This document shows positions 2,861 to 28,148 of a stretch of 64,000 nt of DNA, one piece after another. The translations under genes were made by a program, and so were the position numbers. The stretch is taken from assembly GCA_003166955.1 (NCBI GenBank), contig PMUI01000107.1, positions 1-64,000 of the forward strand, written 5' to 3'. The first letter of the stretch is position 1, and each line of letters opens with the position of its first letter. Origin of the DNA: Acidobacterium sp. Its GTDB lineage: Bacteria; Acidobacteriota; Terriglobia; Terriglobales; Acidobacteriaceae. The notes under the pieces are model-generated. The model did not search any database. It was not told the origin of the DNA and saw only the letters and a program-made list of their open reading frames with translations.

Positions 2861-3904
2861 TCAGTGTCCATAGCCGGCTTCCGCGGTGACTTTACCACGG
2901 AAGAGGCGGTAGGACACGATGAAGTAAGCCAGGGCGAGGATGAGGCCGAGGGACCACCATATCAGTCCGACGTGAAGAGAATGTGGCCCGGCGAGAGCCG
3001 TGGCGATGGTGATGTTGCGGGCGGGATCGCTGGAGGAAGGCAGGAGCGTGGGATAGAGTCCGACGGCTGCGCCCACCAGCATGAAAACCAGGTAAAAGCA
3101 GGATGAGAGAAACGCGGCGAGGGGCTTGCGCTGCTTGGTGAAGCTGAGGATGCCGATGAGGGTGGCAACGACCAGCGCTGGGATCGCGTAGAGGATCTTG
3201 TGCGCCTCGTAATTGTCGAGCGCGGAGGGACGGACAGCGATAGTGGCGGGCAGGCTGATGAGCGTGACGACCAGCAACGCGACCCAGAGAGCGGAGGCAG
3301 CGTTGCGGGCGCGGGCTTCGAGTTCGCCGGGAGCCTTGAGGACGAGCCAGAGCGCGCCGTGGGTGGCGAGGGCGACGAGGGCGACGACTCCGCCGATGAC
3401 GGTGTACCAGTCGAGAATGCCCGGCTCGGGGCCGACGCGCCAGTTGGTCCAGAGAGGCAGGAAGAAGTAGTTGTCTGCGCCCAGGGGCACGCCACGGATG
3501 ACGTTGGCGAGCGCGGCACCGAAGAAGATGGCGAGCAGCGCGCTGGCGACGAAGAAGAGGCCGTCGAAGAAGCTGCGCCAGACTTCGTGGTCGATGTGCA
3601 TGCGCAGCTCGATGCTGGCTCCGCGCATGATGAGGAGCCAAAGGACGATCATGAGCGGCAGGTAAAAACCGCTGAAGGACGAGGCGTAGAGCAGCGGGAA
3701 GGCGAAGAAGAGCGTGCCGCCACCGGCGAGCAGCCAGACTTCATTGCCATCCCACACCGGGCCGATGGAGCGGTAGAGGGTGCGGCGAGCGTCTTCAGCG
3801 CGGCCGAGGAAAGGAGAGAGGATGCCGACGCCGAGGTCGAAGCCGTCGAGGACGACGTAGGCGGCGATCATGACTGCGACAATCCAGAACCAGACGAATC
3901 CCAT
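2861..3904 (-). CDS. cydB: Cytochrome bd ubiquinol oxidase subunit II
   Basis: This 347-residue polytopic membrane protein has the CydB opening (a helix with [14 protein letters not shown]) followed by about eight hydrophobic segments, and [15 protein letters not shown] typical of the family. CydB pairs with CydA to form the proton-motive quinol oxidase that reduces O2 to water with high affinity. A strong GGAGGAGAA ribosome site precedes the ATG at 3904. It lies 14 bases behind cydA in the same operon. Length matches the shorter CydB proteins. No CydX was seen between cydB and the next gene. Confidence 0.95.
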
Positions 3905-7193: not shown

Positions 7194-8084
7194 TTATTCA
7201 GCGATATAGGCGCTCAAAGTGAGCACGAGGAGGGTCAGGCCAATCAATATAGCGGTAAACCCGACCGCCCGGCTGAAGTTTATCAACCAGGGCTGAGGCG
7301 CGTCTGTGATCCTTGTCGCAGACTTGCCTTCGGCGACCATGCGCTTATATTCGTCCGGGCGGCGGGTTTTGAATTCCTCTTCGCTCTCGCGGCCGGTGAA
7401 GATGACCATGTCCATGGGGAAGCTGTCGGGGCGGAGGTGGGTGTTGACGAAGTGGATGGAGAAGATGAAGAGGATGGCGAGGAGGCCTTCTTCACTGTGG
7501 ATGACGAGGGCGGCGTTGAGCGCCCAACCGGGGAGGAAGCGGGCGAAGAAGGGCGCGAACCACATGGCGTATCCGGAGAAGCCGATGACGACCATGCCCC
7601 AGAAGACGGCCCAGTAGTCGAATTTTTCCCAGTAGGCGTAGCGCTCGAATTTTGGCTTGGGGCCGAGACCAAGGAACCAGCGCATGTGGCCGAAGAGGTC
7701 CTTGACGTCTTTCCAGTTGGCCACCATGGAAGTGGGTCCCCAGAAGATTCCCTTCTCGCGCTTGAAGAGGCCGCGGGCGACGATTTCGCGGACATGGATG
7801 ATGAAGGCCAGGGTGAGGACCAGGGCGCAGAACTTGTGGAAGAAGAGGATGGTTCCGAAGCCGTCGACGAGTTTGGCGAAGCGGATGGCCCAGATGGAGC
7901 CGCTGAAGCGCATCATGAGCCCGGTGGCCGCCAGCACCAGGAACGAGGTGAACAGGACGCCGTGGAGGTAGCGCTGGCCCAGGGTGAAGCGGAGGAAGTA
8001 GCGGGGCTTTTCGGGCGCGGCGACCGCCGGGGCGGCGACGATTTCCGGGGCTGGCGCCGGCGTGGCTTGAGTGGGCTCAGGCAT
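7194..8084 (-). CDS. Di-heme cytochrome b (b561/formate dehydrogenase gamma-like)
   Basis: The 296-residue protein has an Ala/Pro-rich N-terminus, then about five membrane segments with histidines suited to bind two b hemes (for example RYLHGVLFTSF, FFHKFCALVLTLAFIIHV, and the last helix with FSIHFVNTHL). It resembles the membrane cytochrome that connects periplasmic multiheme cytochromes with quinones. The ATG at 8084, with GGGAG before it, overlaps the upstream multiheme gene by 8 bases, implying translational coupling. Its sequence, including WEKFDYWAVFWG and a following IFTGR, resembles the C-terminal half of the fused protein at 9879-12038, so the two are likely paralogues. Confidence 0.85.
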   Translation of the reverse strand: MPEPTQATPAPAPEIVAAPAVAAPEKPRYFLRFTLGQRYLHGVLFTSFLVLAATGLMMRFSGSIWAIRFAKLVDGFGTILFFHKFCALVLTLAFIIHVREIVARGLFKREKGIFWGPTSMVANWKDVKDLFGHMRWFLGLGPKPKFERYAYWEKFDYWAVFWGMVVIGFSGYAMWFAPFFARFLPGWALNAALVIHSEEGLLAILFIFSIHFVNTHLRPDSFPMDMVIFTGRESEEEFKTRRPDEYKRMVAEGKSATRITDAPQPWLINFSRAVGFTAILIGLTLLVLTLSAYIAE

Positions 8085-9297
8085 TTTTTTCTCCCGACGA
8101 TTTGCTTTTGACCTGCTGGAGGCGGGAACGGACAAGCCACAGCACGGTGTGGAGCATGAAGAATGTCAATACGCTGGCGAGGAGCAGGTTCATGAAGAGG
8201 CGGATGTAGTAGAGCGCCGGGTTCAGCCTGCGATTGCGCGCGTTGGCGTGCGGCTGGTACTGGACGAAGCTGGCGTTGGCGCCGGCGTGGCAGCGGCCAC
8301 AGGTGGCGATGAGGTTGGCTTTGTTGACGGGCGAGTTGGGATCGGAGGTTGGCAGGACTTCGTGCGCTTTGTGGCAATCCCAGCAGCGGGCGGTTTCGGT
8401 GTATCCACCGAGGAGGCCGAGCTGCGAGTGGAAGGTATCGCGGTAGGTGGAGAACTTGTCGCGATGGCAGGAGCCGCAGATGGGCGTGGACTGCATACGG
8501 AATTCGGCGGAGGTGGGCTCGACGATGCCGTGGGTTGTGTGGCAGTCGGTGCAAACGGGGGCGCTGGTGCTGCCGGCGGCGACGGCTTTGCCGTGGACAC
8601 CCTTCTGATACTGCTCGTTGATGCCGACGTGGCAGGAGCCGCAGGTGCCGGGGATGTTGGTGCGGTAGGTGGAGCTTTGCGGGTCGGTGTGGCTGAGAAT
8701 TTTGTGCGAGCCGTGGCAGCTGGTGCAGTTGGCGGCGACCAGCAGGCCCTCTTTGCCGAGGGCGAAGCCGTGGATGGAGTCGATGTAGAGGGCGTAGACG
8801 TTGGGAAGGTGGAATTTCTTCGCCATGGCGGGGTCGCCGTGGCAGCCGCCGCAGGTCTTGGGGATGTTCAGGGGATAGACGGTGGAATTTGGATCTGTCT
8901 TTGTGACAATTTCGTGGGCGTTGCCGTGGCAGCCAGTGCAGGCATGCGCTTTCCAGCCGGTGGCGCCGGGAACCGACGTGCTGGCTTTGGCGTGGATGCT
9001 GCCGGCGATGGCAGAGGCTTCATCAGCGTGGCAGGTTTCGCACTGGACCGCTGCGGGATGGTCAGGGTGGGGATAATCGTGAATGTCCTTGTGGCAGTCA
9101 TTGCATTTGAGGCCGCCGTGGATGCTCCCGTGAAACTTGTTGGCATCGACACCGACGCTTTTGCCATTGGCGTCCTGCATGGTGGTGTCGCCATGGCAGG
9201 AGAGGCAATCGGTATCCGCGTGCAGAGGCCGCGCGGTCGCGACGAACAGAAGCGCTGACGCAAAAAGTGTCAGGCCGAAAGAAGAAAGGGTCTTCAT
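8077..9297 (-). CDS. Undecaheme c-type cytochrome, exported, C-terminal anchor
   Basis: The 406-residue precursor has a signal peptide (MKTLSSFGLTLFASALLF..., cleavage near residue 26) and eleven CXXCH motifs: CLSCH, CNDCH, CETCH, CTGCH, CGGCH, CTSCH, CGSCH, CTDCH, CGSCH, CWDCH and CGRCH. It ends in a transmembrane helix (about 362-390) and a basic tail, so the heme domain should sit in the periplasm tethered to the inner membrane. Repeated SIHG/VHG segments supply extra histidine ligands. Start 9297 follows GGGAG and gives the signal peptide. It is coupled to the cytochrome b at 7194-8084; together they resemble the fused 13-heme protein upstream. Confidence 0.9.
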   Translation of the reverse strand: MKTLSSFGLTLFASALLFVATARPLHADTDCLSCHGDTTMQDANGKSVGVDANKFHGSIHGGLKCNDCHKDIHDYPHPDHPAAVQCETCHADEASAIAGSIHAKASTSVPGATGWKAHACTGCHGNAHEIVTKTDPNSTVYPLNIPKTCGGCHGDPAMAKKFHLPNVYALYIDSIHGFALGKEGLLVAANCTSCHGSHKILSHTDPQSSTYRTNIPGTCGSCHVGINEQYQKGVHGKAVAAGSTSAPVCTDCHTTHGIVEPTSAEFRMQSTPICGSCHRDKFSTYRDTFHSQLGLLGGYTETARCWDCHKAHEVLPTSDPNSPVNKANLIATCGRCHAGANASFVQYQPHANARNRRLNPALYYIRLFMNLLLASVLTFFMLHTVLWLVRSRLQQVKSKSSGEKNA

Positions 9298-9414: not shown

Positions 9415-9732
9415 CTACTTCTGCAGTGTGCGGATGTAGGCGATGACTTCTTTGATCTGGGCGTCGGACAGCTTGGTGCTGTAGGAGGGCATTTTGCCTT
9501 TGCCGCTTTTCGTGGTCGCAATCAGGTCCGCGTCGGAGGCCTTGATCTCCGCGGGATCTTTGAACGACGGGACTTTCATGGCTTTGCCAGTAGGGGTGGA
9601 GGCAGTGCCGTCGGGGCCGTGGCACATGGCGCACTTGGCTTTGTAGGTGTCGGCACCGGCGCTCTGCGCAAAGGCAGGCGCCGCAATGGAGGCGGCGAGC
9701 AGGATCAAGGCCGCGGTTCTGATGCGATTCAT
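9415..9732 (-). CDS. Small monoheme cytochrome c (class I)
   Basis: The 105-residue precursor has a signal peptide ending AFAQ, one CAMCH heme site and a distal methionine candidate in GKMPSY, as in soluble class I cytochromes c. It probably carries electrons in the periplasm between the multiheme proteins. AAGGAG is 6 bases before the ATG at 9732. It is clearly paralogous to the cytochrome at 12196-12516: both share YKAKCAMCHG and end AYIRTLQK. A CRP-like palindrome lies about 76-91 bases upstream, so it may open its own transcript. Confidence 0.92.
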   Translation of the reverse strand: MNRIRTAALILLAASIAAPAFAQSAGADTYKAKCAMCHGPDGTASTPTGKAMKVPSFKDPAEIKASDADLIATTKSGKGKMPSYSTKLSDAQIKEVIAYIRTLQK

Positions 9733-9878: not shown

Positions 9879-12038
9879 TCAGTCGTGTCCCTCCGGGGGA
9901 GGATTGGGGGGAGCGGAGTCGGGCCCGGGAGCGGGTTTCTGGTCCGCGGGAGTTTCTTCCTGCATCTCACGCACTTCGTGTTCCGGCCCACGGCCGGTGA
10001 GGAAGGTCCATTTCACCGGGTAAATATCGGGATCGAAGATGACGGCGTAGAAATGCCAGATGACGATGGCGGCGGTGGCGAGGATCGCCTCGTAGAAATG
10101 GACCGCGGTGCTGATGGTGAGGATCGACGCCGGATGCGGAAGATGGGCGAGGATCCAGTCATTGAGCCAGAGCAGCACGCCGGTGATGGCCATGACGATG
10201 GTGCCCCAGACGAGTGCCCAGTACTCGGCCTTCTCGGCGTAATTGAAGCGGCGGTAGCGCGGGAGCTGATCGCGGTGGCCGAGGTTGTATTCGACGGTCT
10301 GGATGGCTTCCTTCGCGTCGCGCAGGTCGGGAACCATGTCTTTGAGCCAGCGGCGGCCGCTCTTTTTTATCGACAGATAGACGATGTGGTAGACCGATGC
10401 GCCGATGAGGACGACGCCGGCGACGCGATGGACCCAGCCGCGAATCGGGAAGCCATGTTCCCAGTGGACGAGGGGCGCGGCCCAGAAGGAATGCGGGAAC
10501 TTGAGGGCGAAGCCGGTGATGACCAGCACGAGGAAGCTGACCACGAGAAGCAGGTGCTGCCAGCGCTCGCTGAGGGTGAGGCGGACCTGGCCGGGAATCT
10601 GACGATAGCCTGCGAGGATTACGTGGGCTTTGCGCCGCAGGTCGATGAGGTTATGCAGCAACATCGCGCCGAGGGTGACGGGGATGACGATGAAGTAGAA
10701 AAGCTTGACGTAGTCGAGGACGCGACCGCCGGGGGTGGTCTTCGACATGACGTGTACGGGCCCGATGGCGAAGCGGCTGCCGGCGTCGTTGTGGCACTGG
10801 CCGCAAGTCTTGCTGAGGTTCGCATGGTTGACGGTGGAGCGCGGATCGCTGGACGGGTAGATGTTGTGGACGCCGTGGCAGCTGGCGCAATTGGCGACAG
10901 TCTGGCGGCCCTCGCGCGCGGCTAGTCCGTGGTAGCTGTCCTGGTAGGTGGGCACGCGGTCCTGCGGCATGGCAAAGCCGGCCATCAGCTGCGTGTCGCC
11001 ATGGCAGTGGGAGCAGGCCTCCTGCGAGACGTTGGCCATGTAAACGGGCGAGCCGGGATCGCCAGGGGCGAGGATTTTGTGTTCACTGTGGCAGTCGGTG
11101 CAGGTTGCTGCCTGGAGGACGCCCTTGGAGACGGCCTGGCCGTGAATGCTCTGCGCGTAGGTGTTGAAGACGGCGGTGTGGCACTGGCCGCAAGTGGAGG
11201 CGACGTTCTGCTTCCAGATCTTCGAGTGCGGATCGGAGACGGGGAGGATGTCGTGGGTGCCGTGGCAATCGTTGCAGGAGGCGGCGCTTTCGTCGCCGTG
11301 CAGGATTGCTCGTCCGTGAACGCTCAGCTTATAGGCCTCGACGGGGCGCACCTCGGTGAACATATATTTGGCGGCGAGCTTTGGATCGGAGTGGCAGGAG
11401 CCGCAGGTGTCAGGCAGATGCTGCTTGCTGACCGGCGATTGCGGGTCAGTGGAGGGCAGCGCGGAGTGCGCGGAGCCGTGGCAGTTCTGGCAGGTGGGCA
11501 CATCGGCGTTGCCGTGGTCGCGCGCGCGGCCGTGGATGCTGGCGCGGTATTGCTCAACTTCGGTGGCGTGGCAGGTGGCACAGAACTGCGGGCCGGCGAC
11601 GGCTTTCGCTACGTTGTTAGTGCCGTGGCAGACGATGCAGGTTTGCGGGTCGTTGGGATTGCCGAGGGCAGAGTGCGCGCCGGATGTCATCGCTTTGGCG
11701 GAATCGGCGTGGCAGGTGACACAGGAGGCGGAGGCAGTCTTTGCGCTGTGGGTTTGCGCAGAGGCGCCGGCGTGGCAATCCACGCAGCCGAGACTGCCGT
11801 GCGGGCCCTTCATGTGGGAGGGGCTGACGGTGATGTCTTTACCCTGGGAGTTCTTTAGTCCCGTGGAGGGACCGTGGCAGAGCAGGCAGTCGGAGGCCTG
11901 CTGGGCGCGGGCGCTGGGAATCAGAAATGCGGCTACCAGGAAAATGAAGAGAAGGACGACCTCTCTGAGGTGGCGTTGGTGAGCCCGGCTGTCGCCGGAA
12001 AAGGATTCCGCAGGCAGTTCTTCCGCGTTGGTCCCCAT
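9879..12038 (-). CDS. Thirteen-heme cytochrome c fused to a cytochrome b domain
   Basis: The 719-residue protein has an uncleaved or late signal/anchor helix (about residues 25-45), thirteen CXXCH motifs (CLLCH, CVDCH, CVTCH, CIVCH, CATCH, CQNCH, CGSCH, CNDCH, CGQCH, CTDCH, CSHCH, CASCH, CGQCH; about residues 50-440), and a C-terminal multi-helix cytochrome b domain (about 450-690) with histidines in its helices. The arrangement places quinone chemistry and a periplasmic heme wire in one polypeptide. The neighbouring genes at 7194-9297 encode the same two parts separately. Start 12038 has only a weak GGAAG site. The acidic, proline-rich tail faces the cytoplasm by inference. Confidence 0.88.
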   Translation of the reverse strand: MGTNAEELPAESFSGDSRAHQRHLREVVLLFIFLVAAFLIPSARAQQASDCLLCHGPSTGLKNSQGKDITVSPSHMKGPHGSLGCVDCHAGASAQTHSAKTASASCVTCHADSAKAMTSGAHSALGNPNDPQTCIVCHGTNNVAKAVAGPQFCATCHATEVEQYRASIHGRARDHGNADVPTCQNCHGSAHSALPSTDPQSPVSKQHLPDTCGSCHSDPKLAAKYMFTEVRPVEAYKLSVHGRAILHGDESAASCNDCHGTHDILPVSDPHSKIWKQNVASTCGQCHTAVFNTYAQSIHGQAVSKGVLQAATCTDCHSEHKILAPGDPGSPVYMANVSQEACSHCHGDTQLMAGFAMPQDRVPTYQDSYHGLAAREGRQTVANCASCHGVHNIYPSSDPRSTVNHANLSKTCGQCHNDAGSRFAIGPVHVMSKTTPGGRVLDYVKLFYFIVIPVTLGAMLLHNLIDLRRKAHVILAGYRQIPGQVRLTLSERWQHLLLVVSFLVLVITGFALKFPHSFWAAPLVHWEHGFPIRGWVHRVAGVVLIGASVYHIVYLSIKKSGRRWLKDMVPDLRDAKEAIQTVEYNLGHRDQLPRYRRFNYAEKAEYWALVWGTIVMAITGVLLWLNDWILAHLPHPASILTISTAVHFYEAILATAAIVIWHFYAVIFDPDIYPVKWTFLTGRGPEHEVREMQEETPADQKPAPGPDSAPPNPPPEGHD

Positions 12039-12195: not shown

Positions 12196-12516
12196 TTACT
12201 TCTGCAGAGTGCGGATGTAGGCGACGACGTCGTTGATCTGAGCGTCAGTGAGCTTGCTTGCGTATCCCTGCATCTTGCCCACGCCGTCTTTAGTCTGCTT
12301 GAAGAGGTCGGCGTCGGTGGCCTTGATGTCTTCAGGAGACTTGAGAGAGCGCAGCTTCATGTTTTTGCCGATGGGCGTGTTGCCGGTGCCGTCGGCGCCG
12401 TGGCACATCGCACATTTTGCTTTGTAGGTGGCCTCACCCGACTGTTGGGCGATGGCAGGAACGGCAAGCGAAACACTCAAGAGAGTCAGGAACGCAACAC
12501 GGAAATTCGGCTTCAC
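12196..12516 (-). CDS. Small monoheme cytochrome c (class I)
   Basis: The 106-residue precursor has a signal peptide ending AIAQQ, one CAMCH site and a C-terminal GKMQGY that may give the methionine ligand. It is a close paralogue of the cytochrome at 9415-9732. It starts with GTG at 12516, chosen because AAGGAG lies 5 bases upstream and the signal peptide begins there. It lies between the beta-barrel gene and the 13-heme cytochrome; a periplasmic shuttle between these is a reasonable inference. Confidence 0.92.
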   Translation of the reverse strand: MKPNFRVAFLTLLSVSLAVPAIAQQSGEATYKAKCAMCHGADGTGNTPIGKNMKLRSLKSPEDIKATDADLFKQTKDGVGKMQGYASKLTDAQINDVVAYIRTLQK

Positions 12517-12532
12517 CTTTGCTCCTTGCTGC

Positions 12533-12558: not shown

Positions 12559-12569
12559 TTGTTTGCTGC

Positions 12570-15152
12570 TCAGAATTCGTAATGCATTCCGATGACGACG
12601 TTGTTCGCACGGAAGGTTCGGGGCGCGGTCTCTCCGGCATTCGTGAGGGTCAGGCCGGTTTGCAGACCAGCCAGACTCGACGAGTTGCAGGCAACCACGG
12701 GCGACGGGGCCGTGGGCGAGGGATTGACGGTTGTGCAGTAAGGCGCGCCGGAAGGTCCGCCTTCGCCGTAGCCGAAGTAGTCGTATTCCGCTTTCCAGAT
12801 CCAGCCAGGCTTGACTGTCAACGCAACTTTCGCAAAGGGCGACTCATACCTGGAGACCAGAGAGCCTGCAACGTCGCGCGCATCGTTATAGAAGCGGGTA
12901 CCGTCCACGTTGCTTACGCGATAACCGATCGCCCACTTGACGGAATCGGAGGTGGAGACGCGGAGCGCCACGGAGCCGTACTGGGTCGGAGCATCCATGA
13001 AGTCCTTCGTTGGGCCCATGTCGTAGCCTCCTCCCCGGTTGGCGGTAGGAGACGGGCAGGCCGTACCGCTCACTGTTGAGGCGCCCGGCAGGGTGGGGGT
13101 AGCACCGGCGAGATAGCAGATATTCGTCGAGGCATAGACATCGCTGTATGAGTAATTCAGGTCGATGCCATAGTGCTCATTGGGCGACAGCTGCGCACCA
13201 ATGCTGGCCACGCGGCTGTGATCGACATGCTGGAGCGGGCCATCAAGAGGCGCTGTACCTGTGTTGTTGGTGTTGTTATGCCGTTCCAGATCGTTGTAGG
13301 CGCCGGACAGGGTGGCCCAGGACTTTGCCTTGTACAGGGTGTGCACTCTGTAGTGCTGCACCTGACGCGGACCGATCGGGGTGAACGCGTTGTCGTCAAA
13401 GAGAAGCTCGGCGGTGCCGCTGACATCCCAGTCGTTAGTGGGACGCAGAGAGACATTCAGGATGCCCCCGTCTTCGTTAATGGTGACGGTTCCGCAGGTG
13501 ACTCCGGGAGGATTCTCAGCGGTGCACGTGGCTACGGGAACGTTGTGAGGGAGGCCCTCGGAGATGACGTGATTGCGGTGACGATACGTGAGCGAAACCG
13601 TGCCGCGCGACCAGCCATCCCAGGTCCCGGTCAGATCGTTGGATATCCACCTCTGGCCGAAGAAGTCAGGGTTGGGCACGCCGATGGAGCCGCTGCCTTC
13701 AAAAGTGCCGGCGCCTGCGGCCGCGTTGGCCGAGGTCAGCGAAGTTGTGTTGATGGTTTCGTTGCCGGCAGTCGCAGGCGTCGAAACCGTGGTGGCACTG
13801 GTCATGGTGGTGGTTCCCGGTTGCTGCACGTTGTTAAAGCTCACCTGATCGGAGACGCTGAACTTCGGGGAAGCCTGCCAGACGATGCCGTAGTCGGCCG
13901 CCGTTACCTCACGCCTAGCGCTACTGGTGGCGGTGTAGGTGAGCGAGCGGGTGGTTTTGGCCAGCCCCTGGAAGTTGTCGTAGTAGTTGGGCAGGTTCAT
14001 CTTCGCGTTGGTGTAGCGAAAATCGCCGTTCATCGAGATGTTCCGGATACTGGAGCTCTGGAAGCGGAAGATTTCAGTGGGATAGAGAATGCGTGTCGGC
14101 TGGGAACGGAGATAACTGGTGATGACGGCGCATGCCGGGTTGATAACGGGAAGACCACCGTTGGTTGCCGGCGCCGAGAGAACCGGCGTGGTGCCTACGC
14201 TGTTTGCATTGCAGGCGCTGGCGGCGTAGGGCGTGAGGCTGTCATAGTTGGCAAGAAGGGCGACTTTAGTGCCGTCCGGCTCCTGCACGTAGAAGTATTC
14301 AGGATCCATGGTAAAGAACGAGTCGGCCTTGTAGTGGTCGATCTGCTCTTCGTAGGTCAGCCGGGTGTCCCGCACGGGCTTCCAGTCGAGAGCCGCGAAG
14401 AAGTCGTCGGTGCCGTTGCGCTGATACTCCTCGAGCAGGACATCGTAGGAACTGGCGAATTGATAACCGCTGGGGCTGAGGCTTGGACCCTCGAAGGTAT
14501 TGTGCGAGTAGCCTACCCGATAGGTCACCTTATCCAGCGGGAGGAGGGTGAGGCTGGTATCCGTCATGCGGCGCACGGTGTCGTAGGCGAACGGCGACTG
14601 GTTCACCTGCGACCACGGCAGCGAGCCGGTTGGCGCGGCGGCGGGGCCGATGGGAGTCGAAAGACCCGACGGGATATTCGGGTTACCGAGCAGATCGTAG
14701 TCGAAGTACTGACGGTCGCGGCGGAAGAGTCCGGAGAACTCGTAGAGCTTGCCCTTATAGAAATCCATTTTGGCGAAGTCGTAGGGATCGCCGCCAAATC
14801 CGCCGCCCGCGGCGGTAAGAGTATCGAAGAGCGTGTTCTTCGCGTCCGGGAGAGCGCGCATTTCGAAGGTCTCGCCGAAGACGCGGGGCCCCGACTGCTC
14901 GTTCACGAGGGTGTCGTACATGGATCCGCTGCCGTTGACTTTGACGATGCGCCCACCGACATCGACGGTTTGATGGACGGTGTAACCCTTCGGGGCGGTG
15001 ACCGGTTGAGGCTCCGCAGCCGGAGCCTGGGCGACAGCGACAACCGCCGTCATCAATAGAATGGCGACTCCAAAGCCCCCGGCGATACGCCCGAACCTTG
15101 CGGCGGAGGGCTGTTGATTGGAGAGCCGCGAAAACCAGACTGTCTTCATCAT
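12570..15152 (-). CDS. MtrB/PioB-like outer-membrane beta-barrel
   Basis: The 860-residue protein has a long signal region (hydrophobic near residues 25-42), then alternating amphipathic segments typical of a large beta-barrel, many aromatic girdle residues, and a C-terminal phenylalanine in GMHYEF as recognised by BAM. It directly follows a decaheme MtrA/DmsE-like gene, the standard pairing of MtrAB/PioAB conduits in which the barrel sheathes the decaheme cytochrome across the outer membrane. Start 15152 follows GAGG by 6 bases. The family call rests on architecture and neighbour, not on strong motifs; other multi-strand porins remain possible. Confidence 0.75.
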   Translation of the reverse strand: MMKTVWFSRLSNQQPSAARFGRIAGGFGVAILLMTAVVAVAQAPAAEPQPVTAPKGYTVHQTVDVGGRIVKVNGSGSMYDTLVNEQSGPRVFGETFEMRALPDAKNTLFDTLTAAGGGFGGDPYDFAKMDFYKGKLYEFSGLFRRDRQYFDYDLLGNPNIPSGLSTPIGPAAAPTGSLPWSQVNQSPFAYDTVRRMTDTSLTLLPLDKVTYRVGYSHNTFEGPSLSPSGYQFASSYDVLLEEYQRNGTDDFFAALDWKPVRDTRLTYEEQIDHYKADSFFTMDPEYFYVQEPDGTKVALLANYDSLTPYAASACNANSVGTTPVLSAPATNGGLPVINPACAVITSYLRSQPTRILYPTEIFRFQSSSIRNISMNGDFRYTNAKMNLPNYYDNFQGLAKTTRSLTYTATSSARREVTAADYGIVWQASPKFSVSDQVSFNNVQQPGTTTMTSATTVSTPATAGNETINTTSLTSANAAAGAGTFEGSGSIGVPNPDFFGQRWISNDLTGTWDGWSRGTVSLTYRHRNHVISEGLPHNVPVATCTAENPPGVTCGTVTINEDGGILNVSLRPTNDWDVSGTAELLFDDNAFTPIGPRQVQHYRVHTLYKAKSWATLSGAYNDLERHNNTNNTGTAPLDGPLQHVDHSRVASIGAQLSPNEHYGIDLNYSYSDVYASTNICYLAGATPTLPGASTVSGTACPSPTANRGGGYDMGPTKDFMDAPTQYGSVALRVSTSDSVKWAIGYRVSNVDGTRFYNDARDVAGSLVSRYESPFAKVALTVKPGWIWKAEYDYFGYGEGGPSGAPYCTTVNPSPTAPSPVVACNSSSLAGLQTGLTLTNAGETAPRTFRANNVVIGMHYEF

Positions 15153-15198
15153 AAGAAGCCTCACTTGAAAACGTCGAACCCCTCGAATCCGTAAACGT

Positions 15199-15250
15199 AA
15201 AAAAACCTGGTCCAGAATCCGGGCCGCGCCCCTGTGTGTGCGCAGCCCGG
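15199..15250 (-). terminator. Possible terminator/attenuator after the decaheme gene
   Basis: In minus-strand reading an 11-bp stem with one G-T pair (arms 15240-15250 and 15219-15229) is followed after 13 bases by seven T residues (15205-15199). It lies between the decaheme gene and the barrel gene and could lower barrel expression relative to the cytochrome. Confidence 0.45.
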
Positions 15251-15261
15251 CACCATCCCTG

Positions 15262-16182
15262 CTACCGAAGGAACGCCTGGTTGATGTTCGAGCCATGAAT
15301 GTAGGTATGGCAGCTGGTGCAAGGCGCCAACTCATCCGATCCTGCGCCCATCCCGTTGATCGTGTGGTTGGCCACTCGGCTGTGGCACTGGTTGCAGAGC
15401 GTGTTGATGGACGGCATATTCAGCAAGCGAGCGTTCTGCGAACCGTGCGGCGAGTGGCATCCGGTGCAGCCTTCCGCCTTGACCGCGGCGTGCTCGTAAA
15501 CGAACGGCCCGCGCGTTTCCGCGTGGCACTTTGTGCAGACGGCATTCTGATCGGCGGTGGCCTTGATGTTATTCGCCTGGAAGGTGCCGTGCGGATCGTG
15601 GCAGTCGCTGCAGCTAACCGCGCCTTCGTTCACCGGATGATGGAACGGCATGTCGAACGCCGCCTTCTGGTCGGTGTGGCACTGGAAGCAGAGCTTGGGC
15701 TGTTCGGCCTTCAGCAGGCGCTCGGGCGCTTCGGGAGCGTGGACGCTGTGGCAGCCGAGGCAACTGACGCCGGACTTGGCATGCGCGGAGCGCTCGAAAT
15801 TCGGATGAGCGCCGGCGTGGCAGCCGAGACAGGTCGCACTGGCATCTTTGGGGCTGAGTTTGTCGAAGCGGCGAATCTTTGTGACATCGCCTCCGCCATC
15901 GACGTGAGCTTTGCCGGGTCCGTGGCAGCTCTCGCAGGTCACGCCTTTGCCGGCGTGCTCAAGAGCGAGACGAGTGTGCGGATTGGTTCCGAATTTCTTC
16001 GCGACATCCGCGTGACAAGTGGCGCAAGTCTCCTGACCGACGAAATCCGTCGCGTCCGCTGCCGCCTTCGGTTGGGAAGTTGCCGCTGGCTGCTGGCCAC
16101 CGCCGGCAGCGAGCGCCAGCCTGGTTCCTGCGAACCCGGTCAGAAGCAGAAGAAACGCCATGCTGGTAAGAAATCGACGCAT
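15262..16182 (-). CDS. Decaheme c-type cytochrome, MtrA/DmsE/PioA family
   Basis: The 306-residue precursor has a signal peptide (cleavage near residue 25) and ten CXXCH motifs: CATCH, CESCH, CLGCH, CLGCH, CFQCH, CSDCH, CTKCH, CTGCH, CNQCH and CTSCH. The FVGQETCATCHADVAKKF start, the HPVNEGAVSCSDCHDPHG segment and the CTGCHSPHG segment are typical of DmsE/MtrA proteins. Such proteins span a beta-barrel and move electrons across the outer membrane. GAGGTGA precedes the ATG at 16182. Two CRP-like palindromes lie upstream, so it probably heads the multiheme operon. No MtrC/OmcA-type outer-surface lipoprotein cytochrome was seen in the window. Confidence 0.92.
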   Translation of the reverse strand: MRRFLTSMAFLLLLTGFAGTRLALAAGGGQQPAATSQPKAAADATDFVGQETCATCHADVAKKFGTNPHTRLALEHAGKGVTCESCHGPGKAHVDGGGDVTKIRRFDKLSPKDASATCLGCHAGAHPNFERSAHAKSGVSCLGCHSVHAPEAPERLLKAEQPKLCFQCHTDQKAAFDMPFHHPVNEGAVSCSDCHDPHGTFQANNIKATADQNAVCTKCHAETRGPFVYEHAAVKAEGCTGCHSPHGSQNARLLNMPSINTLCNQCHSRVANHTINGMGAGSDELAPCTSCHTYIHGSNINQAFLR

Positions 16183-16539: not shown

Positions 16540-17244
16540 TCAGTGTTGCTTGTCTGCCACGACACCGGTGTTGATGGCGGCGGCAATAGGGCGCCGATTG
16601 CCTCGGCGCTCGTCGAGCCACGCACGCCACTCGTCCATGCCCTTGCCGGTGGCGCAGGAGACTTCGAGGATTTCGATGGCGGGATTCACCTGGCGGGCGT
16701 TGGCTTTCGCTGCTTCGATGTCGAAGGGGACGTAGGGAAGAAGGTCGACCTTGGTGAGGATGAGCAGCGCGGCCTTGTGGAAGATGGAGGGATACTTGAG
16801 CGGCTTGTCCTCGCCTTCGGTGACGCTGAGCAGGACGATCTTGGCCTGTTCGCCGAGGTCGTAGCTGGAGGGGCAGACGAGGTTGCCGACATTTTCGATG
16901 AAGAGAATGTCGATGTTTTCCAGCGGCCAGGGTTCGAGGGCGCGCAGGATCATTTTGCCGTCGAGATGGCAGACGCCGCCGGTGACGATTTGCTGGACGG
17001 GAAAACCGTAGCGGGCGATGCGGCGGGCATCGTTCTCGGTTTGCAGATCGCCGGTGAGGACGGCGACCTTTTCTTCGGGACGGAACACGGCCAGGGTGCT
17101 TTCGAGGAGGGTGGTTTTGCCGGAACCGGGTGCGCTGATGAAGTTGAGGCACAGGATGTCGTTCTCTTCAAAGCGGCGGCGCAGATCGAGGGCGATGCGC
17201 TGATTTTCGTTGAGGACTTTTTGTTCGACGCGGACGACGGTCAT
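16540..17244 (-). CDS. hypB: Hydrogenase nickel incorporation GTPase HypB
   Basis: The 234-residue SIMIBI GTPase has a P-loop (APGSGKTTLLE), a DLQTENDARR switch region, a VCHLDGKM metal-site segment (Cys and His) and the TKVD guanine-specificity motif. HypB with HypA delivers Ni to the hydrogenase large subunit. It lacks the N-terminal CxxCGC motif and histidine-rich stretch of some HypBs, so it probably does not store nickel. The ATG at 17244 overlaps the hypA stop (ATGA). Confidence 0.95.
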   Translation of the reverse strand: MTVVRVEQKVLNENQRIALDLRRRFEENDILCLNFISAPGSGKTTLLESTLAVFRPEEKVAVLTGDLQTENDARRIARYGFPVQQIVTGGVCHLDGKMILRALEPWPLENIDILFIENVGNLVCPSSYDLGEQAKIVLLSVTEGEDKPLKYPSIFHKAALLILTKVDLLPYVPFDIEAAKANARQVNPAIEILEVSCATGKGMDEWRAWLDERRGNRRPIAAAINTGVVADKQH

Positions 17245-17600
17245 GGCTCCTCCACTTCTACGAAGGCGATGTCGAGCTGATCGCCGCTGACGAATTTGGT
17301 GCGTTCGCAGTGGCAACGAGGACAGGGCGCATCGGTGAACGGCGACAGGTGCGAAGACGAGAATTCGTGGCCGCAGTCCTCACAGCGATTCACGCGCGGA
17401 CATTTTTCCGTGGTCAGCACGACTTTCTCGTCTTCAGTTTCGGCGGTAATGCATTCAAAAGCAAAACGCAGGGCGTCGATGTCGACGCCGGAGAGCACAC
17501 CAATGCGCACACCGATGCCGATGAGCTTTGCTCCCGGACGGCGGGCGGTTTCACTGTGGGCGGCCTCGAGAATCGAGCTGGCGATGCCGACTTCGTGCAT
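17241..17600 (-). CDS. hypA: Hydrogenase nickel metallochaperone HypA
   Basis: The 119-residue protein starts MHE, with the His2 nickel ligand of HypA, and has a zinc finger with two Cys pairs (CEDCG near residue 73 and CPRCHC near 93). It hands nickel to HypB. It is translationally coupled to hypB and lies 93 bases after the hydrogenase maturation protease gene. hypC, hypD, hypE and hypF are not in the window. Confidence 0.95.
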   Translation of the reverse strand: MHEVGIASSILEAAHSETARRPGAKLIGIGVRIGVLSGVDIDALRFAFECITAETEDEKVVLTTEKCPRVNRCEDCGHEFSSSHLSPFTDAPCPRCHCERTKFVSGDQLDIAFVEVEEP

Positions 17601-17693: not shown

Positions 17694-18260
17694 CTACCAA
17701 TACCAGCTTTCTTCGGCGGCCGCCAACTGGAGGCCGTCCAGCTCAGACTGCAGATCATCGCCAGCTTCTGCAGCGATCTCCGCCTGCCACCGCGCGACCT
17801 GGCCGATCGCGCACTCCACCAGCGTAACAAGGGCCGCGTCGATTTTCGCGGTGAGTTCGGTGCCCCAGCCGATCACCTCAGGCTGGATGCCGAGGACTAC
17901 GATTTCCGTCGGCGCAGATTCGACGAGGCGCAGGGCGCCGATGAGGTCGGAGAAGCCGAGCAGGTGGACGCTCTTTGAGACGGGGAGATCGGAGATTTCC
18001 TCGCCGGAGTAGCGGAGCAGCGTGCCGGGCTCGGCGCCGGCGTCGATGGCGTCGAGCGCGAGGAGGTGGGTGACGCCTTCCAGCGGGTAGATGAGGTCGA
18101 GGCCCAGCGTGCCGCCCTCAATGAGCGGAACGGACTGGGGGAAGCGCGCATCGGCGCGGAGACGCTGGAGGGCGAGCATGCCGAGGGCGTCGTCGGTGCG
18201 CATGAGGTTGCCGAGGCCAAGAACAGCAATGCGGGGGAGGGCGATGCGGGGCGTGATCAT
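17694..18260 (-). CDS. hyaD: [NiFe] hydrogenase maturation endopeptidase
   Basis: The 188-residue protein opens with the HyaD/HybD/HycI signature AVLGLGNLMRTDDALG. Expected nickel-contact positions appear as an acidic residue in TDDALG (Asp where HybD has Glu), Asp in LDAIDAG and His in SVHLLG. This protease removes the C-terminal peptide of the large subunit after Ni insertion. Its ATG overlaps the stop of the cytochrome b gene (ATGA). The C-terminus is somewhat longer than in E. coli HyaD. Confidence 0.92.
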   Translation of the reverse strand: MITPRIALPRIAVLGLGNLMRTDDALGMLALQRLRADARFPQSVPLIEGGTLGLDLIYPLEGVTHLLALDAIDAGAEPGTLLRYSGEEISDLPVSKSVHLLGFSDLIGALRLVESAPTEIVVLGIQPEVIGWGTELTAKIDAALVTLVECAIGQVARWQAEIAAEAGDDLQSELDGLQLAAAEESWYW

Positions 18261-19045
18261 CGATCCCAATCCCTGGTGCGGTGGATCTTGCGCTTGCTGA
18301 AGATGTGCCCCGGCTCCAGCCTCGCGATCTCCATTTCTTCGTCGATGGTCTCGTCGTCCACGAATTTGTAACCGCTGAAGATACTTTCCATCTCCGCATT
18401 GCGCTCGGTCATGGCTACCAGCACCGCGCTGTACACGTGGTGGATGAAGAAGGCCATGAGGAAGAAGAGGAAGAGGAAGTGGACGAAGCGGAGCCACTGG
18501 ATGTCGATGACGCGGGGGATCCAGCCCACGAAGAAGCGCAGGGTGGGCGAGCCTTCGACGGTGGCAAAGAGCACCAGACCGGTGATGCATTCGCAGGCGA
18601 TGAGGAAATAGACAACGATGTAGGTAAGCCCGGCGAGGGTGTTGTGGCCGATCTGCTCGAAGGGTTTGCGCTGCTGGAAAGTGTAGTAGCGGAACATCGC
18701 TTTGAGGCTGCGCCACTGGCGCTGGGTGAGGGGCAGGAACTGACGCCAGCGGGCCCAGTGATTGCCGGCAAAGAACCAGTAAATGCGGACGAGGAGAGCA
18801 CCGATGAGCTCGAAGCCGGCCAGCTCATGGATGAAGCGCACCGTTCCCATGGTCCACGAGCGCGGGCCTGGGAAGATGAGGAAGGGGTGGTTCATGTAGA
18901 GGCCGGTCCAGGTGAGGACCGTGACGGCGGCGACGATGCCCCAGTGGCTGAGGCGGACGGGGAGTTCCCAGACGTAGACGGGGACGAGATGCTCTTCGCC
19001 AGCCGCTGCGTGTTTCTTCGGAGCGGGACGGACGAGGGTTGCCAT
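18257..19045 (-). CDS. hyaC: Hydrogenase cytochrome b subunit (HyaC-like)
   Basis: The 262-residue protein has four strong membrane helices with histidines for b-type hemes (RLSHWGIV, RFIHELAG, and FVHFLFLFFLMAFFIHHVY). It resembles HyaC/HydC cytochromes that take electrons from the distal Fe-S cluster of the hydrogenase small subunit and reduce quinone. The ATG at 19045 overlaps the stop of the large subunit gene (TGATG), with CGGAGG upstream. This identifies the hydrogenase as membrane-bound and quinone-linked. Confidence 0.93.
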   Translation of the reverse strand: MATLVRPAPKKHAAAGEEHLVPVYVWELPVRLSHWGIVAAVTVLTWTGLYMNHPFLIFPGPRSWTMGTVRFIHELAGFELIGALLVRIYWFFAGNHWARWRQFLPLTQRQWRSLKAMFRYYTFQQRKPFEQIGHNTLAGLTYIVVYFLIACECITGLVLFATVEGSPTLRFFVGWIPRVIDIQWLRFVHFLFLFFLMAFFIHHVYSAVLVAMTERNAEMESIFSGYKFVDDETIDEEMEIARLEPGHIFSKRKIHRTRDWDR

Positions 19046-20832
19046 CACAGGCCTCCGGTTGCCGCCAGAACTCGAGCCGCTGGAACGGGAGGAAGCGACG
19101 TGGATCCCTCCGGTTCCGGCACAGCCACTACATCACGGCCGTAGCTGCGGCCCTTTCCGTCGACCACATGCACAGCGCAGGCCAGGCATGGGTCAAAGGA
19201 ATGGACAGTGCGGAGCACTTCCAGGGGGCGCTCGGGATCGGCGATGGGCGTGTTCAGCAGGGCGGCTTCATAAGCGCCACGCTGACCGTGGGCATCGCGG
19301 GGTCCGGCGTTCCAGGTGGAAGGAACGATGCACTGGTAGTTGACGATCTTCTTGTTCTCGATCTCGACCCAGTGGCCAAGGGAGCCGCGCGGGGCTTCTT
19401 CAAGCCCGAAGCCGGCGCAGGATTTGGGCCAGCTCTCGGGATCCCATTTGTCGCCATTGTGGATACGAATATCGCCGTGCGCCATGTTGTCGTCGAGCTG
19501 AGCGATATATTCGGGCAGCTTCTGGACGACGATGTCGGCTTCGATGGCGCGCGCGGCGATGCGGCCGAGAGTCGAGAAGAGCGCCGTGGGCGGAGCGTTG
19601 AACTTCGCCAGCACGCTGTCGACGGTTTTCTTCACAGTGGCGTCGCCGGAGGCATAGGCAATGAGGGTGCGCGCCAGCGGACCCACTTCCATGGGCTTGT
19701 CGTCGTAACGCGGCGACTTCAGCCAGGAGTATTTGGCGTCGGTATCGAGGGTGAGGAAGGGCGGCTTGGGACCGGAATACTTCGGGTTGGTCTCGCCTTC
19801 CGCCGGATGACGGCTGGCCTGATCGCCGACCGAGTACTCGTACCAGGAATGTGTGACGTATTCGGCCACTTTGCCGGGATCGACCGGATTGACTTTGGAG
19901 AGGTCGCGGCCGAGCAGGATGCCGCGCGGGAAGAAGTAATCCGAAGGATCGTTGATGCTGCCGGAGGGGAAATCGCCGTAGGCCATAAAGTTGCCGAGGC
20001 CTTCCCCATAGCCGAACCACTCCTTGTAGAAGCCGGCGATGGCGAGAACATCGGGAACGTAGACCTGCTGGACGAAAGTTTTAGCACGAGCCGCAAGCTC
20101 ATTGAAGAGCGTGATGCGCTCCGGATTGATCACAGCTTCCGGCTCGTTGCCATCGATTGCGGTAGACATCCCACCGACCAGATAAGTCTGGAGGTGTGGA
20201 TTTTTACCGCCCAGGACCGCGTGGATGCGAATAAAATCCCGCTGCATATCAAGCGCTTCGATGTAATGCGCGACTGCGAGCAGGTTCGCTTCCGGCGGCA
20301 GTTGGTAAGCAGGGTGTCCCCAGTCACCGCTGCTAAAGAGGCTCAACTGCCGGCTGGCGACCAGCGCCTTGACGCGGTCCTGGACTCCCTTGAAATATGT
20401 AGTGCTCGACTTAGGCCATTCCGAAATGGACTGCGCAAGCTGCGAAGTCTTTGCCGGATCGGCCTTCAAGGCGAGGGTCACATCGACCCAGTCGAGCGCA
20501 TGGAGGTGGTAGAAGTGAACAACGTGATCCTGGACGTTCTGCGCGGCCGCGATGATGTTGCGGACGAGGCGGGCGTTATCAGGAACTTCGATGCCGAGCG
20601 CGTTTTCGACGGCGCGGACGGAGGCGAGGGCATGGACGGTGGTGCAGACTCCGCAAATGCGCTGCGCCCAGATCCAGGCTTCGCGAGGATCGCGGCCGCG
20701 GAGGATGAGTTCGATGCCGCGGAACATGGTGCCGGAGCTCCAGGCGTCAGTAACGCGGCCTCCGTTGACCTCGGTTTCGATGCGGAGGTGGCCTTCGATG
20801 CGGGTTACGGGATCAATGACAACGCGTGCCAT
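19045..20832 (-). CDS. hyaB: [NiFe] hydrogenase large subunit, group 1-type
   Basis: The 595-residue catalytic subunit has both metal-binding signatures: RICGVCTTVH (about residue 60) and DPCLACAVH near the C-terminus, which supply the four cysteines binding the Ni-Fe(CN)2CO site. The part after DPCLACAVH, where the maturation protease cuts, is about 40 residues and ends AATGGL; many group 1 enzymes have roughly 15. Start 20832 gives the canonical MARVVIDPVTRIEGHL opening and lies one base after the small subunit stop. Export is by hitch-hiking with the Tat signal of the small subunit. Exact subgroup unassigned. Confidence 0.96.
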   Translation of the reverse strand: MARVVIDPVTRIEGHLRIETEVNGGRVTDAWSSGTMFRGIELILRGRDPREAWIWAQRICGVCTTVHALASVRAVENALGIEVPDNARLVRNIIAAAQNVQDHVVHFYHLHALDWVDVTLALKADPAKTSQLAQSISEWPKSSTTYFKGVQDRVKALVASRQLSLFSSGDWGHPAYQLPPEANLLAVAHYIEALDMQRDFIRIHAVLGGKNPHLQTYLVGGMSTAIDGNEPEAVINPERITLFNELAARAKTFVQQVYVPDVLAIAGFYKEWFGYGEGLGNFMAYGDFPSGSINDPSDYFFPRGILLGRDLSKVNPVDPGKVAEYVTHSWYEYSVGDQASRHPAEGETNPKYSGPKPPFLTLDTDAKYSWLKSPRYDDKPMEVGPLARTLIAYASGDATVKKTVDSVLAKFNAPPTALFSTLGRIAARAIEADIVVQKLPEYIAQLDDNMAHGDIRIHNGDKWDPESWPKSCAGFGLEEAPRGSLGHWVEIENKKIVNYQCIVPSTWNAGPRDAHGQRGAYEAALLNTPIADPERPLEVLRTVHSFDPCLACAVHVVDGKGRSYGRDVVAVPEPEGSTSLPPVPAARVLAATGGL

Positions 20833-20833
20833 C

Positions 20834-21967
20834 TCAGTGCACCTCCGTCGTCGGCTTTTCGGCCTTCGCTTCTTCGTGGGGCGGGCCGTCTCCGTCGCCG
20901 TTGGGGTGGAAATGCTCGCGCACCACGTTCCCCACGGCGTGAGCCGCGGTGGCCACGGCCACTGCACTGACGACTGTCCAGCCGATCTCGCTGGCAGTGA
21001 CATCGACGCCGAAGCCTGCCGGATGCGGCAGCCTCTCATAGAAGGGCGATTTTGTATCCCAGAAGCGCGAGGATGCGCAGGCGATGCAGCCGTGGCCGGA
21101 TTTCACCGGCCAGCTGGTCGAGTCGTTCCAGCGCACGGTGGGGCAGTTGTAATTGGCTTCGGGGCCTTTGCAGCCCATTTTGAAGAGGCACCAGCCCTTG
21201 CGATGTCCCTCGTCGCCCCATTCCTGCACGTAGCGGCCGGCGTCGTAGTGGGCGCGGCGCTCGCACTGGTCGTGGATCAGCTGGCCGTAGGCGAAGAGCG
21301 GGCGGCCCTCAGGATCGAGCGCGGGCAGCTCATTGAAGGTGAGGAAATGCACCAGAACCGCGGCCGTATTCACCGAGTTTTGCGGGCATCCGGGCAGATT
21401 GACGACTTTGATTCCGGGTACGGCTTCGTGCAGGCCAACCGCGCCGGTGGGGTTAGGATTCGACCGCACCAGACCGCCGTCCCACGCGCACGCGCCCACA
21501 GCGATGGTGGCAGCGGCACCGCCGCAAACCTCGCGGGCGATATCAAGAGCGGTGCGTCCACCGATGGTGCAGTAGACGCCGTCATCCGCAGTGGGAATGG
21601 CGCCTTCGACGACGACCAGGTACTTCCCTTTTCCCTCATCGACTACGCGTTTCAGGGCTGCTTCAGCATGCTTGCCGTAGCCGGCCATGATGGTCTCGTG
21701 GTACTCGAGGGAAAGCGTCTCGAGAACGATGTCTTCAATGGTCGGGTGGGGCGAGCGCAGCATCGATTCCGTATTGCCCGCGCAATCCTGAAACTCGAGC
21801 CATACCATCACGGGCTTGCGCTTTTGGCTCAGCGCGTTTGCGATGGTCTGCGCGTAGCCCTTCGGCAGGGCCAAGGTCGCGGCCATGGTGCCGCAGAACT
21901 CCATGAAGCGTCTGCGCGAAATGCCGCGCCGTCGACATGTATCAAGAACAGATTCTTCTGTGACCAT
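20834..21967 (-). CDS. hyaA: [NiFe] hydrogenase small subunit, Tat-exported, atypical proximal cluster
   Basis: The 377-residue precursor has a twin-arginine signal (SRRRFMEF, residues 18-25) and a C-terminal membrane anchor followed by a His/Glu/Pro-rich tail. Cluster ligands are visible: GACAWDGG and LPGCPQN for the proximal cluster, HDQC and CLFKMGC for the distal cluster, and YNCP with GCIAC for the medial one. The usual ECTGC at the proximal cluster reads DCAGN (Cys62, Asn65), so one ligand cysteine is replaced by Asn. AGGAGG is 5 bases before the ATG at 21967. It heads the hydrogenase operon with a CRP-like palindrome upstream. Confidence 0.95.
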   Translation of the reverse strand: MVTEESVLDTCRRRGISRRRFMEFCGTMAATLALPKGYAQTIANALSQKRKPVMVWLEFQDCAGNTESMLRSPHPTIEDIVLETLSLEYHETIMAGYGKHAEAALKRVVDEGKGKYLVVVEGAIPTADDGVYCTIGGRTALDIAREVCGGAAATIAVGACAWDGGLVRSNPNPTGAVGLHEAVPGIKVVNLPGCPQNSVNTAAVLVHFLTFNELPALDPEGRPLFAYGQLIHDQCERRAHYDAGRYVQEWGDEGHRKGWCLFKMGCKGPEANYNCPTVRWNDSTSWPVKSGHGCIACASSRFWDTKSPFYERLPHPAGFGVDVTASEIGWTVVSAVAVATAAHAVGNVVREHFHPNGDGDGPPHEEAKAEKPTTEVH

Positions 21968-28145: not shown

Positions 28146-28148
28146 TCT

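Follow-up and report, generated by a model that had tools for sequence, protein, structure and literature searches.

A divergent MtrB-like barrel paired with a decaheme cytochrome in an Acidobacterium contig, and its hydrogenase and quinol-module neighbours

Among the closest known systems to the gene pair considered in this work is the Shewanella MtrCAB complex (PDB 6R2Q), in which a decaheme cytochrome (MtrA) and an outer-membrane barrel (MtrB) are accompanied by the surface cytochrome MtrC; PioAB/MtoAB, a two-protein conduit without a surface decaheme, and the Geobacter pair GSU2203/GSU2204 offer further terms of comparison. Within the Acidobacteriota, the available portions of several papers report five MtrCAB sets in Acidobacteriia (PMC8805035), PioA/MtoA homologues, also in Acidobacteriia (PMC10654088), an MtrB homologue and an ExtB/E-type conduit in Holophaga (PMC7399161), and extracellular electron transfer systems unlike those of Geobacter in three metagenome-assembled genomes (MAGs) from a hot spring (PMC6137239). 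Decahemes of the MtrA/DmsE type were likewise described in Arctic peat Acidobacteria proposed to be Fe reducers, while an adjoining barrel, hydrogenase or quinol modules are not described in the examined text of that report (PMC3669403). Here we describe a decaheme cytochrome gene and a barrel gene that lie together in a stretch of 64,000 nucleotides from Acidobacterium sp. (contig PMUI01000107.1 of assembly GCA_003166955.1, positions 1 to 64,000; the window, from now on), and that appear to encode an MtrAB-type conduit with a divergent barrel, next to a [NiFe] hydrogenase, three quinone modules and a bd oxidase. Neither this divergent barrel family nor its combination with hydrogenase and quinol modules turned up in the open-access literature searched.

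The decaheme gene occupies positions 15262..16182 of the minus strand and encodes a secreted protein of 306 residues, with a signal peptide and ten CXXCH motifs, which reaches 260.4 bits against TIGR03508 (DmsE family; curated cut-off, 192.2). The closest solved relative in a sequence search of the PDB was 6r2q_A (E 7.8e-38), and the same chain was the top structural match of the AlphaFold2 model of the protein (Foldseek E 2.0e-10; Z 12.2). The entry is entitled 'Structure of the Mtr complex' and the molecule name printed for this chain is 'Cystathionine beta-synthase'; we take chain A to be MtrA and chain B to be MtrB. All ten heme motifs are invariant across 14 sequences, and in a wider alignment of 48 sequences the motif positions are again invariant, with the exception of one Cys (C263) conserved at at least 90%. 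These results agree with an earlier note, made from the letters of the window and without database searches, that had read the protein as a decaheme of the MtrA/DmsE type. The protein also matches NF041028, the GSU2203 family, at 231 bits, that is, under the cut-off of 325.

About 110 bases downstream, on the same strand, lies the barrel gene (12570..15152). The mechanically called open reading frame (ORF), 12570-15335(-), has 921 residues and ends in Phe, so that a large predicted beta-barrel with a terminal Phe does follow the decaheme gene, as had been claimed. Translation likely starts at the Met at ~15152, since a predicted signal peptide comes right after it, and the mature protein, of 818 residues, begins at ~15026. 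Taken as a single sequence, the barrel matched no NCBIfam or Pfam family up to E 0.01, and the check proposed in the earlier note, a search with the hidden Markov models (HMMs) of MtrB/PioB (TIGR03509/PF11854), thus yielded nothing; nor was NF041027, the family of Geobacter GSU2204, matched within that limit. TIGR03509 has no match in the genome from which the window derives, yet it matches 62 of 297 genomes sampled across the phylum. Because the cut-off was not reached and its own genome gave no match, the barrel was not filed in TIGR03509, and by its sequence it would fall outside the curated MtrB/PioB family (TIGR03509, PF11854).

Given that the single sequence is unrecognisable, the case for an MtrB rests on profile-profile comparison and on a structural model. 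Two barrel profiles were used. The first, A2, comprises 64 barrels, namely that of the window and those from 63 of the 68 loci found to carry a barrel of the same family; the second, A3, comprises 22, of which 21 come from 30 fetched TIGR03509 loci (16 over the cut-off and 5 below it) and the remaining one is the Photobacterium MtrB, from a megaplasmid. The latter was used as the named reference, the decaheme having given a single plasmid match over 80% of the query. LptD (24 proteins) served as the control barrel, as PF13372 and PF07396 yielded too few sequences. The comparison of A2 with A3 by hhalign gave 99.6% (E 1.5e-24, 607 columns), while A2 gave 4.7% with LptD and 7.7% with the reversed A3, and all the controls stayed between 0.5 and 29.4%. 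The long-barrel subfamily that includes the window barrel (30 sequences) produced, when compared alone with A3, 97.4% (E 1.4e-11; controls, 7.2% and 0.4%). The A3 profile, in turn, does reach 6r2q_B among PDB sequences (E 1.2e-115). The AlphaFold2 model of the barrel, built from the 64-sequence alignment, has a predicted local distance difference test (pLDDT) of 82.0 and a predicted template-modelling score (pTM) of 0.78. Its top Foldseek match is 6r2q_B (E 3.6e-14; template-modelling score 0.71 by target and 0.57 by query), with which it aligns at Z 25.3 and a root-mean-square deviation of 3.5 over 573 of 649 residues; the second-ranked structure remains at Z 16.7. From the profile homology and the predicted fold, then, the barrel is recognised as a distant MtrB.

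Certain results weigh against this identification. Alone against the A3 profile, the window barrel gave only 13.9%; a phmmer search with it found no match among PDB sequences; and the A2 family profile did not reach MtrB among those sequences either. In addition, the number of long strands, ~26, was counted by eye from the DSSP listing and not from coordinates. It could be proposed, on such grounds, that an ordinary transport porin or TonB-type receptor has come to adjoin the decaheme gene by chance. The missing HMM match of the single sequence would suit this, and so would the fact that generic barrels also match the model, at Z 14.6 to 16.7. However, 6r2q_B stands 8.6 Z units over every other barrel listed, the profile homology holds up with its controls, and the gene keeps a fixed position beside the decaheme gene in all 24 loci where the pairing could be assessed, to which a natural fusion of the two proteins can be added (both described below). 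Chance neighbourhood was rejected on the combination of profile homology, fold match and fixed pairing, and we consider it extremely improbable; the unrelated TonB or sugar porin that the earlier note had named as the contrary finding did not appear.

The position of the gene is equally informative when seen across genomes. A search of 41 genomes (that of the window and 40 relatives) found the barrel in 23. The loci examined there number 26 (the window and L039-L063; loci are given here as L and genomes as G, each with a number), and in 24 of them a ten-heme gene on the same strand immediately precedes the barrel; the other two are L051, cut by the end of the contig, and L063, a 75-residue fragment without a decaheme. 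A 205-residue chance match in L049 is left out of this count. A second sample was drawn by the decaheme, taking the best 80 of at least 501 confirmed candidates (588 stretches), and may omit the genomes nearest to the window. The family barrel is present in 68 of these 80 loci and in every one of the 68 it lies directly downstream, on the same strand. By their titles, 66 of the 68 are acidobacterial, L109 is a 'bacterium' and L122 a MAG labelled 'Bordetella parapertussis'. The latter title, on a MAG with an acidobacterial conduit, is probably a mislabel. Ten of the 12 loci without the family barrel are titled Planctomycetota, Armatimonadetes, Elusimicrobia, Deltaproteobacteria, Desulfuromonadaceae or Geobacter, and nine of the 12 have a barrel matched by A3, one of these nine weakly. 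The barrel family is widespread in Acidobacteriota. The conduit is also encoded in the genomes of Silvibacterium bohemicum S15 and Acidobacterium sp. S8 and, these being named organisms, it is open to genetic and electrochemical testing. A congener (G007) carries a second, divergent decaheme-barrel pair at L053 16652-19828; the 16 kb that precede it contain no hydrogenase.

The fusion mentioned above belongs to one of these 12 loci, L159, and is found in an acidobacterial MAG, BP7.bin70, where the decaheme and the barrel are encoded by one ORF of 1046 residues (L159 9983-13120, plus strand). The 716 C-terminal residues of its product gave 95.0% with A2 (E 3.8e-8) and 90.2% with A3, while the reversed, shuffled and LptD controls did not exceed 4.1%; against PDB sequences, this C-terminal part had no match. 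The fused protein scores over the cut-off with TIGR03508, and it matches the models of both Geobacter proteins, GSU2203 and GSU2204 (NF041028 and NF041027), under their cut-offs, the barrel part matching NF041027 at E 1.2e-19. An eleventh CXXCH lies within its barrel part. A fusion of this kind, here seen in one MAG, is what a working decaheme-barrel complex predicts.

In comparison with Shewanella MtrCAB, where the likeness comprises a decaheme and a barrel whose predicted folds both match their counterparts best, the window barrel is longer, is 9% identical in the structural alignment and scores under the TIGR03509 model. A further difference concerns its cysteines, which stand in pairs inside long loops: 272/299, 637/657 and 764/780 (mature numbering). 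Across the 64 barrels, the first pair is complete in 29, reduced to one cysteine in 1 and absent from 34; the corresponding figures are 26, 4 and 34 for the second, and 12, 0 and 52 for the third. A fourth pair of the window barrel, 501/511, is unconserved (both cysteines in 1 of 64). Because the two cysteines of a loop are nearly always both present or both missing, this pattern suggests disulfides within the loops, which would probably face outward. The pairs follow the long-barrel subfamily (median of 854 versus 692 residues, as ORFs) and shared ancestry therefore accounts for part of the pattern. Gammaproteobacterial MtrB has an N-terminal CXXC. Such a motif was found within the first 120 residues of only one of the 64 barrels, that of the window not being the one; thus, where Shewanella MtrB has its N-terminal CXXC, the window barrel has loop pairs instead.

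A third difference from the Shewanella system is the absence of MtrC. No lipoprotein-type surface cytochrome was seen among the heme ORFs of the window, whose signal peptides were judged by eye, and TIGR03507 (MtrC/OmcA) gave a best E of 0.18 in the 99%-complete genome, in which five ORFs with 4-7 hemes and one match are uncharacterised. This is in keeping with the earlier claim that no MtrC/OmcA-type lipoprotein is present. Two large multiheme proteins of the cluster, with 13 and 11 hemes, were considered as hidden surface cytochromes and discarded on account of their cytochrome b domains or partners, their membrane segments and the lack of a lipobox by eye. In a groundwater acidobacterial MAG (L124), the conduit lies amid many further multiheme ORFs, with 3 to 11 hemes each, and these perhaps include a surface cytochrome. 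The 'group 5' MtrCAB of Acidobacteriia resembles the window pair in being acidobacterial and in its MtrA/MtrB-type core; however, as presented in the available part of the source, it has mtrC and, after mtrB, a tetraheme gene, and it lacks a nearby quinone oxidoreductase, whereas the window has no mtrC and three quinone modules (PMC8805035).

These modules follow the barrel gene on the minus strand. After a periplasmic monoheme cytochrome c (12196..12516; PF13442/PF00034) comes the gene of a fused protein with 13 hemes and a C-terminal cytochrome b domain (9879..12038; PF14522 in six stretches, PF01292). Its predicted architecture is that of CbcL/MtrH/MtoC, with a multiheme N-terminus, PF01292 and five C-terminal transmembrane segments by simple hydropathy; most homologues have six, according to the part of the survey consulted (PMC6295460). 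It also matches TIGR01583 under cut-off (E 1.4e-19), it is 34% identical to a 9-heme protein with a multiple-transmembrane C-terminus from a Desulfuromonadaceae MAG, and it finds weak matches in a Geobacter MAG (E 1.1e-5). A second periplasmic monoheme cytochrome c (9415..9732; PF13442) precedes an 11-heme cytochrome c with a C-terminal transmembrane segment (8077..9297; PF14522 and heme count) and a membrane cytochrome b of the b561/FdnI type (7194..8084; PF01292 at 31.3 bits versus a cut-off of 30.1; five transmembrane segments by hydropathy), the partner of the 11-heme protein. In L043 a single ORF (11222-13282; 687 residues, 11 hemes) takes the place of these two genes, which suggests that their products act as one split CbcL-like unit. 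The third module is an ImcH-like cytochrome of the NapC/NirT type (5733..7184; PF03264), assigned also by architecture and relatives. It shows three transmembrane segments, one CX3CH (CGQSCH) and five CX2CH, in line with the three N-terminal segments, one CX3CH and 5-9 CX2CH listed for ImcH in the consulted section of PMC6295460, and it has relatives of 36-41% identity in six of the seven non-acidobacterial genomes searched, including Geobacter and Desulfuromonadaceae. The cluster ends with cytochrome bd oxidase, subunit I (CydA, 3919..5283; PF01654) and subunit II (CydB, 2861..3904; PF02322, and TIGR00203 over cut-off).

The window can be set beside the Geobacter CbcL/ImcH systems, with which it shares architectures at 34% identity for the CbcL-like relative and 37-39% for the ImcH-like ones of the Desulfuromonadaceae and Geobacter MAGs. 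Unlike the loci of an earlier survey, which reported imcH to have neither mtrAB nor mtoAB as neighbours (PMC6295460), the window clusters an ImcH-like gene with an MtrAB-type pair. With PioAB/MtoAB it has in common the two-protein conduit lacking a surface decaheme; in contrast, the partners are the ImcH-like protein, two CbcL-like modules and a hydrogenase, and the barrel goes unrecognised by the MtrB/PioB model. Monoheme cytochromes are present, but no PioC, a high-potential iron-sulfur protein (HiPIP), and no MtoD or CymA was seen among the scanned ORFs, a selection lying between positions 91 and 37983. The conduit partners resemble those of Geobacter export more than those of Pio/Mto uptake. 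The earlier note had placed the pair in the MtrAB/PioAB pattern, closer to PioAB/MtoAB or DmsEF: the part referring to an MtrAB type without surface cytochrome stands, while the closeness to either of the two systems finds no specific support in a barrel outside TIGR03509, in scanned ORFs devoid of molybdoenzyme or HiPIP, and in modules of the CbcL-like and ImcH-like types.

The DmsEF comparison deserves separate consideration, since the decaheme scores as DmsE family and no MtrC was found. The conduit could then serve to respire a single specific compound outside the cell, for which the terminal reductase would be encoded at some other place in the genome. Among the scanned ORFs, however, neither a DmsA/B molybdoenzyme nor any other molybdopterin or terminal reductase domain was present, the rest of the genome being unsearched, and we judge this reading quite unlikely.

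Upstream of the decaheme gene, and also on the minus strand, a hydrogenase set is found, in agreement with the hydrogenase mentioned in the earlier note: the [NiFe] small subunit, HyaS (20834..21967; TIGR00391 over cut-off), with a Tat (twin-arginine translocation) motif; the large subunit, HyaL (19045..20832; PF00374), with RICGVC and DPCLACAVH motifs; the b-type cytochrome, HyaC (18257..19048; TIGR02125 at 124.2 bits versus a cut-off of 121.5); the maturation protease, HyaD/HycI (17694..18263; TIGR00072 over cut-off); the nickel chaperone HypA (17241..17600; PF01155); and the nickel-insertion GTPase HypB (16540..17244; TIGR00073 over cut-off). The L1/L2 motifs, the Tat signal and HyaC assign HyaSLC, from sequence, to the membrane-bound uptake [NiFe] hydrogenases of group 1 type, following the usual group scheme. 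A hydrogenase devoid of its own cytochrome b and wired directly into a multiheme protein was also contemplated, and was ruled out by HyaC at ~18260-19048. In the small subunit of the window, the second Cys of the proximal cluster is replaced by Asn (DCAGN). This Asn is found in seven of seven intact hydrogenase copies and recurs in 17 of another 18 loci read, L264 retaining Cys; in these counts L270 is the same region as L106, and L280 and L281, whose hydrogenases are 45% identical and do not fit the pattern, are omitted. It was regarded as a possible new kind of cluster, an idea that was dropped, as the substitution is rare but already tabulated for Nostoc punctiforme at proximal position 2 in the part of PMC4070099 at hand.

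How firmly the hydrogenase is tied to the conduit depends on where one looks. Eleven other congeneric conduit loci have readable upstream DNA (L043 and L051, at contig ends, are omitted), and nine of them carry hydrogenase or hyp genes upstream, while in one, L044, the hydrogenase is decayed and in another, L053, the second and divergent conduit of G007, there is none. Across 200 genomes of the order, a HyaS relative occurs in 73, and at 65% identity or more in 21, including the window and two congeners; of 18 loci at this higher identity that were fetched outside the genus, some of them on short contigs, two (L262 and L270) have the conduit, with differing gene orders. The linkage thus exists in three genera (that of the window, L262, and L106/L270) and is not obligatory.

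Against a functional joining of both systems a number of facts must be counted. A hydrogenase adjoins only one of the 80 best decaheme loci (L106), which is also the only one among the 41 that have at least 5 kb upstream and at least 8 kb downstream. In congener G003, the hydrogenase has decayed to fragments while the conduit cluster stays intact (L044 12675-13728). Finally, hypB and the decaheme gene of the window are separated by 357 bp, because of which the hydrogenase set and the conduit may belong to separate transcripts. These facts lend themselves to the view that the neighbourhood is incidental, the conduit serving general respiration and the hydrogenase feeding the bd oxidase only: no hydrogenase lies in the available flank of 79 of the 80 loci, or of 40 of the 41 well-flanked ones, and the decayed copy sits beside an intact conduit. 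Moreover, in L267 and L269 the same type of hydrogenase shares a 20-kb stretch with cydAB, with no conduit. The linkage in three genera, with differing gene orders, speaks against this view, to which we would give a sizeable minority of our belief. As for the H2-driven extracellular reduction, or its reverse, put forward in the earlier note, the coupling is plausible, but it is optional, the hydrogenase being found in just that one well-flanked locus.

All these observations could be integrated in a model that we hold to be moderately probable: an MtrAB-type conduit, lacking a surface cytochrome as a separate protein, would export quinol electrons, derived in part from H2, to extracellular acceptors. 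In a first step, periplasmic HyaSL would oxidise H2 and pass the electrons, via HyaC, to quinone. In the second, quinol would be oxidised by the 13-heme CbcL-like protein with its cytochrome b domain, by the split pair of 11-heme protein and cytochrome b, and by the ImcH-like protein, from which electrons would move to periplasmic cytochromes, presumably including the two monoheme ones. The decaheme, lodged within the barrel of ~26 strands, would then conduct them over the outer membrane, and they might finally pass straight from the outermost heme, which long loops probably braced by the cysteine pairs would frame, to an extracellular acceptor such as Fe(III) or humics. With oxygen present, the bd oxidase would take the quinol. 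H2 would be one feed among several, because in nearly every relative sampled no hydrogenase adjoins the conduit.

The outward direction is preferred on two grounds. As far as the consulted part of the survey goes, quinol oxidation is the sole process in which ImcH homologues have so far been implicated (PMC6295460); and Fe(III) is reduced by Acidobacteria of this group, a capacity reported in culture for some Acidobacteriaceae in the section seen of PMC8790237. Other considerations pull the opposite way. The sequence fixes neither the direction of the electrons nor the substrate, the lack of MtrC is typical of Pio/Mto conduits, and homologues of CbcL/MtrH/MtoC occur, according to the same partial source (PMC6295460), in organisms that reduce Fe(III) as well as in organisms that oxidise Fe(II). 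The alternative they outline is one in which electrons are taken up from an external donor, be it Fe(II) or some other, in the manner of PioAB/MtoAB, and pass through the CbcL-like modules to quinone, with the bd oxidase as sink and the hydrogenase as second donor. That no MtrC-type protein was found, as in Pio/Mto, is in agreement with it; so is the adjacency of MtoC-type CbcL relatives to mtoAB described in that source (PMC6295460); and a bd oxidase would suit uptake too, since cydA or cydAB closes the cluster not only in the window but also in L040, L043, L044 and L051. On the other hand, an ImcH-like gene with CX3CH, from the family tied in that source to quinol oxidation only, is found on the conduit locus in 22 of the 68 barrel loci of the decaheme scan, and the scanned ORFs showed no PioC-type HiPIP. 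Uptake seems to us, on these grounds, unlikely, and export to extracellular acceptors remains the preferred reading.

Elsewhere in the window (25131-29489, plus strand), a gene of glycoside hydrolase family 115 (GH115) is followed by a glucuronoyl-esterase-like gene, and both are perhaps a pair for the degradation of glucuronoxylan.

The decaheme-barrel pair provides a gene-level candidate for the crossing of the outer membrane by electrons in a phylum that is abundant in soils and peat, and its acidobacterial barrel is missed by the usual MtrB/PioB model. The proximity of an ImcH-like gene to an MtrAB-type pair is, in turn, an arrangement that an earlier survey did not encounter (PMC6295460). 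A broader picture can be drawn, although we advance it tentatively and with more doubt than belief: the Acidobacteriota may have a conduit branch of their own that works as a terminal reductase by itself, in which disulfide-braced loops of the barrel replace the surface cytochrome and leave the outermost heme in direct contact with the acceptor. Within the genus of the window this branch would be joined with a hydrogenase, three quinol modules and a bd oxidase as a single H2-to-outside island, and elsewhere its two proteins would be fused. If this were true, counts made with current HMMs, which overlook the barrel, would underestimate the capacity for such electron transfer in a phylum that ranks among the most abundant in soil.

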